DNA of 60,682 bases from Cryomorphaceae bacterium (lineage in GTDB: Bacteria; Bacteroidota; Bacteroidia; Flavobacteriales_D; Cryomorphaceae), in the NCBI GenBank assembly GCA_003565555.1, contig PXBH01000078.1, positions 1 to 60,682 on the forward strand. Reading direction: 5' to 3'. Position 1 is the stretch's first letter; each line of letters begins with the position of its first letter. A program made the translations under genes and the position numbers. The notes beneath the pieces are model-generated. The model was given only the letters and a program-made list of their open reading frames with translations, ran no database searches and was not told the origin of the DNA. Of this stretch, positions 18,658 through 21,049 are shown piece after piece.

Positions 18658-19683
18658 TTACCAATTCAGCCTCAGCCCGAGCCGAAGTCCCGGGTAGACC
18701 TGTAGCACGAGATCGTCTGAGATGCGCTCTCGGGCCAGGGGTTCCCGTCGCTGGGGCAGGGTATAGCCGGGAAATGAAAAATCATCGTTGTGCAGGAGCC
18801 CGTTGATCATCACGTGAGCAAAGGCGGATACACGGTCGCCGAGGAGGTATTCCAATCCCGCACCGAATCTGTTGAGCAGGTTGAATCGGGATTCTCCGCC
18901 GTGCATGAGGTAGTTCGTCGTGAGCTGCACATTCACCGCCAGCCGCTCTCCGAGCATGGGGGAGGTACCCACTCCGTATCCCAGGTACCACACGGCATCC
19001 CCTTCCTGACGCTGGCTCGCACCGGCGGTGATCAGGTTGTAAAAGTGCCGCATTCCCGTGGCGAAAGAGGCGTTGAGTCGGAAAGTTTCGTCAAAAGCCA
19101 GGTCCACAGATTTATACCCGCCCGTGCCCACAAATGAGAGGAATCCTACGGGCGTTCCTTTTACGGAGTCAGCCACGTTGATGAGTCCGATTTGCATGCC
19201 CTCGGCTACGTGGGCCCTGTTGAAGAGGGCGGCCTGAATTCCCTTCATGTGCGCCTTGCTGCGGTTGGCGAGGAAGGCAAACTGGGCACCCGACTTTACA
19301 TGCCGCGCACGGTTGAAACCGAGGGCAAATTGAGCCCCCCGAAGCGTATCCGTTACGGTGTTGATGATCAGGCCGAATTCCGTATATCTGACACCTGCGG
19401 AGCGCCCGCCGATAAAGTTGAATGAATACCCGTTCACGATGAGGTCGCTGCGGTCACCGTTGGTACTGAGCCCCGGCCAAAGGCTGAACTGAACCCGGCT
19501 GTACAGGCTGTCGGCCCGGGCCGCTTTCACAGTGTCTTGCGGCGGAGTGCCCGTGATTTCCGCAAAAAAGTCGGTACCCGGACTTGATGCAAATCCCGTG
19601 AAATGCAGTGCACAGATCAGGACTGCTCCGATCCCGGCAAGAGCCGAGGGTAAAGACGCGCGCATAAAAAAAGGAGTGGACAC
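18658..19683 (-). CDS. Outer-membrane/surface protein with LA_2272-like repeats
   Basis: A 341-residue exported protein. Its central part has short repeats of the form GxQxALxNRAxxxxGxQxGLxN (for example GAQFALGFNRARHV, GIQAALFNRAHVAEG, MQIGLINVADSVKG), typical of LA_2272-type surface repeats. It ends in LRLGLRLNW, a barrel-like C-terminus. A signal sequence (LAGIGAVLICALHF) follows the start; an alternative Met 6 codons later (19665) is equally possible. A near-match -7 box (TATCTTTA on the minus strand, 19700-19707) favours the longer form. Function unknown. Confidence 0.7.
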   Translation of the reverse strand: MSTPFFMRASLPSALAGIGAVLICALHFTGFASSPGTDFFAEITGTPPQDTVKAARADSLYSRVQFSLWPGLSTNGDRSDLIVNGYSFNFIGGRSAGVRYTEFGLIINTVTDTLRGAQFALGFNRARHVKSGAQFAFLANRSKAHMKGIQAALFNRAHVAEGMQIGLINVADSVKGTPVGFLSFVGTGGYKSVDLAFDETFRLNASFATGMRHFYNLITAGASQRQEGDAVWYLGYGVGTSPMLGERLAVNVQLTTNYLMHGGESRFNLLNRFGAGLEYLLGDRVSAFAHVMINGLLHNDDFSFPGYTLPQRREPLARERISDDLVLQVYPGLRLGLRLNW

Positions 19684-19786
19684 GGACTTCGTTTTGGGGT
19701 AAAGATAGTACTACCCGGCGAGGAAAGACTGCAGGACCGTGAATGCCGCAGGCATCTCAGCGTCGACATTGTGCAAATCACATTCG

Positions 19787-19961
19787 TTAACAAACAGTCC
19801 TGCCGAATCAAAAAAAATCAAAACGATGTAACGTTTCGGATTTTATCCCGTTTAGGGTATTGTAAGCATCTTATTTCATCGGGGAGTGGTTACCCCGAAT
19901 GTTTGAAATGATTGGTTAATTGAAAAGTGACCCGCCAAACGAGGCGGGTCATTTTTATTTG
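19787..19961 (+). ncRNA. Candidate structured RNA, copy A, with terminator
   Basis: The core 19861-19961 has a conserved TGTAAGCATCTTAT start, a hairpin (CGGGG-agtggtta-CCCCG), a conserved single-stranded segment ATGATTGGTTAATTGAAAA, and a 9-bp terminator stem TGACCCGCC/GGCGGGTCA followed by ATTTTTATTTG. Copy B at 20269 repeats all of this. The closing pair of the terminator stem is T-A here and C-G in copy B, a compensatory change. TTAACAA at 19787, a following A-run and GATG-TAAC are also shared with copy B at matching spacing, so the duplicated unit probably includes a promoter region. An alternative reading is a pair of bidirectional terminators, which would not explain the conserved 5' half. 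Confidence 0.5.
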
Positions 19962-20195
19962 GTCTGTTTTTTTCGCGGCAGTTTTCACAGATATCTAATC
20001 TCGAAGGCAACGGTGCTGATTCGCCCCGGGCAGCGAGGATCCTTACGTGCCGGACCATACCGGCCGCATGTCAATTCGGACGATTGCAAGTGCACTTGTC
20101 TTGAGGCCGTAACGCGCGCCCCCGTTCATTGCGAAGTCCCTGATTCAGCAGCAAGGATCACGTGATTAACTTTCATTTTCGCCTCTTGCTTTTTC

Positions 20196-20368
20196 TTAAC
20201 AATCACGGACTCTATATGTTAAAAAAATGATAGATGATAACTTTTTTGATGCGCTCACGTTCTATGTATGTAAGCATCTTATCTTATCGGGGAGTGGTTA
20301 CCCCGAATGGTTAAATGATTGGTTAATTGAAAAACGACCCGCCAAACGTGGCGGGTCGTTTTTGTTTG
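20196..20368 (+). ncRNA. Candidate structured RNA, copy B, with terminator
   Basis: Second copy, core 20269-20368, about 92 percent identical to copy A by eye. The same 5-bp hairpin CGGGG-agtggtta-CCCCG is followed by a terminator stem CGACCCGCC/GGCGGGTCG and a T-rich tail (TTTTTGTTTG). The changes that separate the copies in the terminator stem preserve pairing (closing T-A to C-G, and the next outer pair G-T to A-T). Upstream TTAACAA lies 73 nt before the core, against 74 nt in copy A. The element ends 45 bp before the stop of the minus-strand NUDIX gene and could also terminate that transcript. No family was recognised. Confidence 0.5.
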
Positions 20369-20413
20369 TTCCGGCAGGTTTCACTCCGTGCGGGAGCGGG
20401 ACTTGTGCTGAAA

Positions 20414-21049
20414 TCAGGCCGGGATGCGTCGCAGGATATATGCCAGCTCGTTGAGCATCATGCCGGTGGCACCCCAAACCGTTTCACCTTCAATGTCGAA
20501 ATACTTTACTTTCATCTCACTTTCCGTGAGCTTGAGATACATGACGGTTTCTTGAATCACGTCGGGATCCGACAGCCTGCTCAGGGGTGTTTCGATGATG
20601 CGTGCCACTTCGCGTTCCTCCGGTCTGAATTCGGGAGTATCAGGGCAGAAGCCCACGAAAGGGCTCACCAGAAAATTGCTCGGGGGAATGTACACCTTAC
20701 TGAGTGCGCCGATGTGTTCGATGCGGTCGGGCCTTGCGCAAACCTCTTCGCTTGCCTCTCTGAGTGCAGTGTGGTACAGGTCGGGGTCACCCTCTTCTCT
20801 GCCGCCTCCGGGGAAGCTCACCTGAGCGCTGTGCACACCCTTATATGCATGTCTGAGTGTGAGTACCAAATGTGGTTTGCCTTTTTTCGGGTAGATCAAA
20901 ACGAGAACACCTCCTCGGCGTGCATTCGGAAAGTCTGCTTCAGAGATGTTTTTGAGCGGTCGCGGGTAATTGATCATTTCGCGGTGCGCTTCATGACCCG
21001 GAAGCGGACCCTTCAGCGCATCACGTAGTTTCTCTTTAAAAGCATCCAT
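20414..21049 (-). CDS. NUDIX hydrolase, CoA pyrophosphatase-like
   Basis: A 211-residue NUDIX protein of the NudL/CoA-diphosphatase group, which splits coenzyme A into phosphopantetheine and adenosine-3',5'-bisphosphate. The Nudix box reads GGGREEGDPDLYHTALREAS followed by EE, preceded by the CoA-specific upstream region (VLTLRHAYKGVHSAQVSFPG). The segment GFCPDTPEFRPEEREVARII after the box is usual for this group. It is the last gene of a probable three-gene operon (thioredoxin-like, coiled-coil, NUDIX), 42 nt after the coiled-coil gene. Confidence 0.9.
   Translation of the reverse strand: MDAFKEKLRDALKGPLPGHEAHREMINYPRPLKNISEADFPNARRGGVLVLIYPKKGKPHLVLTLRHAYKGVHSAQVSFPGGGREEGDPDLYHTALREASEEVCARPDRIEHIGALSKVYIPPSNFLVSPFVGFCPDTPEFRPEEREVARIIETPLSRLSDPDVIQETVMYLKLTESEMKVKYFDIEGETVWGATGMMLNELAYILRRIPA

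Follow-up and report, generated by a model that had tools for sequence, protein, structure and literature searches.

Responses of extracytoplasmic function (ECF) sigma factors that include a noncoding arm have been described in Proteobacteria and Fusobacteriota (PMC11005410). FoxI and FoxJ of Fusobacterium nucleatum provide such an arm beyond the Proteobacteria and repress abundant envelope proteins (PMC11005410). Within the Flavobacteriales, a small RNA (sRNA) with an ECF promoter, Rfp11, has already been mapped in Flavobacterium psychrophilum, where a CGT-box motif marks the ECF regulon to which it belongs, -24/-12 sites for sigma-54 include that of the sRNA Rfp36, and Rfp18, which was the sRNA studied by deletion, affects secreted metalloproteases (PMC9723704). 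The stretch analyzed here, a 60,682-nt contig stretch of a Cryomorphaceae (Flavobacteriales) host that we call the window, carries two direct copies, A and B, of a structured RNA element.

We consider it probable that the two copies are paralogous trans-acting sRNAs, which would act as the repressing, noncoding branch of a response to envelope or surface stress, through antisense block of translation initiation. An ECF-type sigma factor would transcribe an RNA of ~97 nt, with sigma-54 driving the first copy after the dps gene in most genomes, and the transcript would run from a conserved 5' seed (UAAGCAUCUUAUUUCAU) through a hairpin and UUGGUUA motifs to a terminator. The seed is predicted to pair with AAGAUGC, which lies on or beside the start codon of mRNAs for secreted and outer-membrane proteins, and the UUGGUUA motifs with UUAACCA ~10-35 nt upstream in the same mRNAs, so that masking of the start codon would block translation initiation while the sigma factor is active. 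Sequence analysis establishes the family, its structure and copy number, its linkage and synteny with dps, and the promoter-like boxes; transcription, sigma dependence and identity, base-pairing and repression are steps that we infer from it. The two copies are composed as follows.

19810 to 19817, plus strand: A-run of copy A, UP-element-like, just 5' of the -35 box (runs of A5-A8 lie there in most of 20 copies in the family)
19828 to 19854, plus strand: ECF-sigma-type promoter of copy A (-35 GTAAC at 19828-19832, 16-nt spacer, -10 CGTTTA at 19849-19854)
19861 to 19957, plus strand: sRNA gene copy A, predicted transcript ~97 nt (99.8 and 100.8 bits with covariance models R1 and R2)
19863 to 19879, plus strand: 5'-end seed region UAAGCAUCUUAUUUCAU of copy A, complementary to AAGAUGC at the start codons of predicted targets
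19880 to 19897, plus strand: hairpin CGGGG-AGUGGUUA-CCCCG of copy A, with UGGUUA in the loop (5/5 pairs with two-sided changes)
19898 to 19926, plus strand: linker of copy A, strongly conserved, with a UUGGUUA motif at 19912-19918 that is complementary to UUAACCA in 5' leaders
19927 to 19956, plus strand: intrinsic terminator of copy A (10/12 stem pairs changed on both sides within the family)
20221 to 20227, plus strand: A-run of copy B, counterpart of the run of copy A
20237 to 20263, plus strand: ECF-sigma-type promoter of copy B (TAAC at 20238-20241, 16-nt spacer, CGTTCT at 20258-20263)
20269 to 20366, plus strand: sRNA gene copy B, predicted transcript ~98 nt (95.1 and 96.1 bits with the same models)
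20288 to 20305, plus strand: hairpin of copy B, from sequence and pair-change analysis
20334 to 20363, plus strand: intrinsic terminator of copy B, from sequence and pair-change analysis

An earlier note on this DNA had proposed a small-RNA pair, and the parts that it listed were all found where it had placed them: both copies contain TGTAAGCATCTTAT, the hairpin CGGGG-AGTGGTTA-CCCCG, ATGATTGGTTAATTGAAAA and a terminator. The copies match each other by BLAST with 141 bits (E 2.6e-34), and their folding z-scores are -5.8 (copy A) and -5.0 (copy B), with none of 200 shuffles folding equally well. As the note had also seen, two outer terminator pairs differ between the copies in ways that keep pairing (T-A/C-G and G-T/A-T). 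It had named homologues with preserved pairing in advance as a test, and such homologues exist: the family comprises 21 core copies, of which 20 entered the alignment and promoter analysis, and 25 model matches when divergent relatives are included. Fifteen of the 17 hairpin and terminator pairs carry changes on both sides in a model-guided alignment of the 25 matches, with a covariation score of 0.475 (0.192 shuffled) and none of 500 shuffles reaching any of five measures; this alignment was fitted to the structure and leans toward it, and the stem changes are also plain in an unfitted alignment. Shifting the pairing partners along the alignment wipes out the covariation signal. An enclosing P1 stem between the 5' seed and the linker, suggested by minimum-energy folds, was rejected, as it shows no covariation and 156 of 500 shuffles were as good.

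The 5' motif UAAGCAUCUUA is invariant, and TAAGCATCTTA is without variation in the 20-copy alignment A1. The linkers of the window copies also contain ATGATTGGTTAA (19908-19919 and 20316-20327), which reads Met-Ile-Gly-stop, the stop varying among TAA, TGA and TAG in related copies. That ATGATTGGTTAA marks a short conserved coding gene for Met-Ile-Gly is scarcely credible: ATG ATT GGT is indeed followed by one of these stops in most copies, but the gene would have three codons only, no longer frame is conserved, and even this one is lost in copies 3-5 of Cryomorpha ignava QSSC 1-22 (G006) and in G004:C358. By sequence, the element thus has the features of trans-acting sRNAs with intrinsic termination, namely a promoter of its own, a short structured RNA, an intrinsic terminator and the lack of a coding frame.

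Each of the 20 copies has its own alternative-sigma promoter by sequence, which suggests that each is transcribed as a unit of its own and is not the 3' end of a neighbouring gene. In 16 of them, [A/T]AAC is followed by exactly N16 and CGT, and the end of the -10 hexamer lies 6-9 nt 5' of the core; we call these boxes ECF-type by their resemblance to the known motif. The remaining four have sigma-54 -24/-12 sites, [T/C]GG[C/T]A[C/T]G-N4-TTG, and one copy has both types, which brings the copies with sigma-54 sites to 5/20. The sigma-54-like copy is without exception the first one after dps. Divergent copies also show AAC-N16/17-CGT. A scan for ECF promoters over 800 kb of genome G005 returned too few sites for assigning a regulon. 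The earlier note had suspected that promoter DNA was duplicated together with the RNA, and this held in part: its GATG-TAAC block is the ECF-type -35 region (16/20 copies) and its A-run is common to most copies, but TTAACAA, 74 and 73 nt before the cores, occurs at that position only in the two window copies among the 20. These promoters, together with the homologues that keep pairing, lend support to the proposed small-RNA pair. They also bear on whether the copies are duplicated bidirectional terminators or a repetitive element with no regulatory RNA, a possibility that the strength of the terminator and its BLAST self-match on the opposite strand would suit. The note had judged it weak and we find it very improbable, since it leaves unexplained the invariant 5' half, the covarying upstream hairpin and the presence, on each copy, of a promoter whose distance is nearly constant, and since the copies stand in syntenic arrays and are not scattered.

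The RNA is new in that it belongs to no RNA family in Rfam; a comparison of the window with Rfam release 15 gave 0 matches at the gathering threshold, in line with the note's failure to recognise a family, and sub-threshold matches such as BSnc120 and GcvB were dropped with scores far under gathering. No tRNA was detected in the window. In the group of Cryomorpha (f1), which we take to be the Cryomorphaceae, the covariance model finds the family in 7/8 genomes, including all six near-complete ones, with 2-6 tandem copies per genome among the relatives. At E 1e-4, the model found none among 294 other genomes of the class, and BLAST gave no match in 52 genomes from other families of the order. 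By sequence, the family is therefore confined to the Cryomorphaceae, which are aquatic bacteria, in the genomes searched. Weak model matches elsewhere in the order were discounted, being mostly terminators only; exact-pattern matches in Psychrobacter, Parapedobacter, Onthousia, Muribaculaceae and viral contigs were dropped as they lack the sRNA structure; and tandem UUGGUUA as a motif of the whole order was rejected, as it was not above the reversed control. In every genome with the core array, 119-195 nt separate the stop codon of dps (Ferritin/Dps domain) from the start of the array downstream on the same strand. The host genome has two further copies, on contig C19, with a terminator standing between dps and the first array copy. 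The two window copies form a further pair, dispersed and with no dps beside it; both cores lie in a 730-bp gap (19684-20413) between two minus-strand genes, for a surface-repeat protein (18658-19683) and a NUDIX/coenzyme A pyrophosphatase (20414-21049). A multi-copy, dps-linked family with ECF and sigma-54 promoters is what this analysis adds to the earlier note.

Read as reverse complement, the sRNA motifs give UUAACCA followed by AAGAUGC, and this combination sits at the starts of genes for secreted and outer-membrane proteins. Predicted targets include members of an MKMHFT..VCC family, two of them in G005 and others in G000, G001 and G002 (a Flavobacteriales metagenome assembly), and a close variant, with AAAAUGC, in G007; the others are a SusC/RagA receptor, a sulfatase, a VWA/DUF11 protein, an outer-membrane-like protein and one in G004. 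The complementarity recurs in homologous leaders from two genera, and between G005 and G002 one pair of the sRNA-mRNA duplex changes from U-A to C-G with pairing kept. With matches sorted into target classes by hand, TAACCA-N(1-31)-AAGATGC lay at secreted-protein gene starts in 10 of 27 non-sRNA places in the family genomes and 0 of 24 in genomes outside the family (p 0.0007), or 6/23 and 0/23 after collapsing to protein families (p 0.011). The better targets have predicted duplexes of -26 to -34 kcal/mol, compared with roughly -12 to -18 when the sRNAs are shuffled (a G005 target, -32.6 vs -13.6 ± 3.3), a strength that is partly by construction because two of the motifs served to pick the targets. 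Within 660 kb of G005 chosen regardless of targets, 7-mers complementary to one sRNA were 2.03 times commoner in leaders of genes with predicted signal peptides than in the leaders of other genes (shuffled sRNAs 1.11 ± 0.27, 3/1000 as high), and a second sRNA gave a ratio of 1.69 (37/1000 shuffles). The control genome G009, which is without the sRNA, showed no such enrichment. As a separate observation, a large secreted-protein gene in G005:C1 (L113, near 647022, minus strand) has in its 3' region UAACCAAUCAUUUUAACCAAUU, which complements the sRNA linker perfectly over ~21 nt and is immediately followed by a terminator; it is a possible sponge or 3' target site.

Several results weigh against antisense repression of surface proteins as we propose it. 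The leader enrichment was not replicated in C. ignava (ratio 0.7-0.9), and signal peptides were predicted by a simple hydrophobicity rule; the target pattern includes AAGATG and hence favours Lys-Met starts; two further targets are weak at best (G000:C17 with copy A, and G004:C325); and the ECF-type boxes could serve more than one sigma factor. In a genome-wide duplex ranking, secreted genes took 13 of the top 30 places for one sRNA (vs 8.1 ± 2.4) and showed no excess for two others; duplex energy as the sole target criterion was dropped as too noisy. Because of the enrichment in G005, yet the negative result in G006, the secreted and outer-membrane target class is supported by sequence but not settled. 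If the trans-acting sRNAs are real and their true targets or role lie elsewhere, for instance in dps or oxidative-stress genes, the secreted-protein matches would be partly chance. The negative result in G006 and the invariant place of the array, next to dps wherever a core array occurs, fit such a role, as does a related motif with a terminator after an AhpD-like gene in G005; we nevertheless hold it to be quite unlikely, given the complementarity conserved in homologous leaders of two genera and the U-A to C-G change matched across sRNA and target. As an observation in its own right, the 3' untranslated region (UTR) of this AhpD-like peroxidase gene (L073:8083-8180, G005:C16) ends with GATGATTGGTTAATATTGGTTAGG and the terminator, a motif pair as in the sRNA.

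The UUGGUUA motifs admit another function, in which RNAs driven by ECF sigma factors and sigma-54 mainly titrate an RNA-binding protein, as RsmY and CsrB do, instead of pairing with mRNAs. The motif is repeated up to three times per RNA, single-stranded in loop and linker and with variable spacing, and divergent RNAs of another family (G118, G232) retain two UUUGGUUAA motifs despite a different 5' half. We give titration some weight but think it unlikely, because the 5' TAAGCATCTTA is more invariant than UUGGUUA and matches the start codons of homologous mRNAs, and because G006 copies 3-5 drop the linker motifs and retain the 5' end. Start-codon pairing by paralogous sRNAs remains the reading that we prefer.

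Candidate relatives were found outside the core family. In the sister-family genome G008, GGAAC-N16-CGT precedes three UUGGUUA motifs and a terminator, and G004 has two additional short copies with AAC-N17-CGT before each. In G118, G232 and G163, several copies of an RNA carry two UUUGGUUAA motifs together with a terminator; wherever the DNA before them was scanned, it contained AAC-N16/17-CGT. At L075, L076 and L079 (G232 and G163, of another Flavobacteriales family), a multi-copy small RNA combines two TTTGGTTAA motifs and a terminator with the promoter TAACC-N16/17-CGTACC and adjoins genes for an ABC-transporter ATPase, a tRNA and others, and at L077:2990-3400 (G070) two tandem small RNAs with ECF-type promoters and TTTCATTTTGGTTTT are unlike the Cryomorphaceae core. 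A second RNA type in G005 and G001 carries GCAUCUUCAU, UGGUUA and a terminator. GCAUCUUCAU complements the target start AUGAAGAUGC exactly, and the G001 RNA is predicted to form a long uninterrupted pairing run with its target start; such a seed, complementary to the MKM start of the targets, could stem from a target leader that was copied in inverted orientation. This type (ATGCATCTTCATAGTAGTTTTA) is conserved in two genera and lies, convergent to an oxidoreductase-like gene, at L156:3611 (G005:C17) and L157:3014, minus strand (G001:C353). Array copies answering to different alternative sigma factors, second-type sRNAs directed at start codons and the sponge-like 3' UTR site might, as a tentative suggestion, add up to a dedicated antisense circuit that silences surface and secreted proteins of Cryomorphaceae.

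The multi-copy family, its clear ECF and sigma-54 promoters, its conserved seed and the named candidate targets make the idea of a noncoding ECF arm directly testable in a third phylum, in C. ignava. The family is also a clean case of gene duplication placing one RNA under two alternative sigma factors. Qrr sRNAs of Vibrio exist in several near-identical copies, and GlmY, of the GlmY/GlmZ pair, has a promoter shared by sigma-54 and another sigma factor. The Cryomorphaceae RNA resembles Qrr in its multiple near-identical sRNAs and GlmY in combining sigma-54 with another sigma factor on sRNA promoters; it differs from both in that the ECF type dominates and sigma-54 sites, found in 5/20 copies where Qrr would have all copies under sigma-54, occur only at the first copy after dps. 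Rfp11 (ECF/SM6, CGT-box promoter) and Rfp36 (sigma-54 promoter) are likewise sRNAs of Flavobacteriales (PMC9723704); these and Rfp18 were compared by description only, and the family model gave no strong match outside Cryomorphaceae. FoxI and FoxJ have C-rich seeds, whereas the Cryomorphaceae RNA has GCAUCUU and UUGGUUA motifs and multi-copy arrays. With RybB, MicA and MicL of the gammaproteobacterial sigmaE response it shares an ECF-type promoter (a trait of the RybB, MicA and FoxI class that 16/20 copies show, by sequence only), a short RNA, a 5'-end seed, an intrinsic terminator and, as a prediction in Cryomorphaceae, start-codon targeting of outer-membrane and secreted-protein mRNAs. Compared with these three, it belongs to another phylum and bears no sequence relation to them (no Rfam match), and it exists as many near-identical tandem copies, some of them under putative sigma-54 control.
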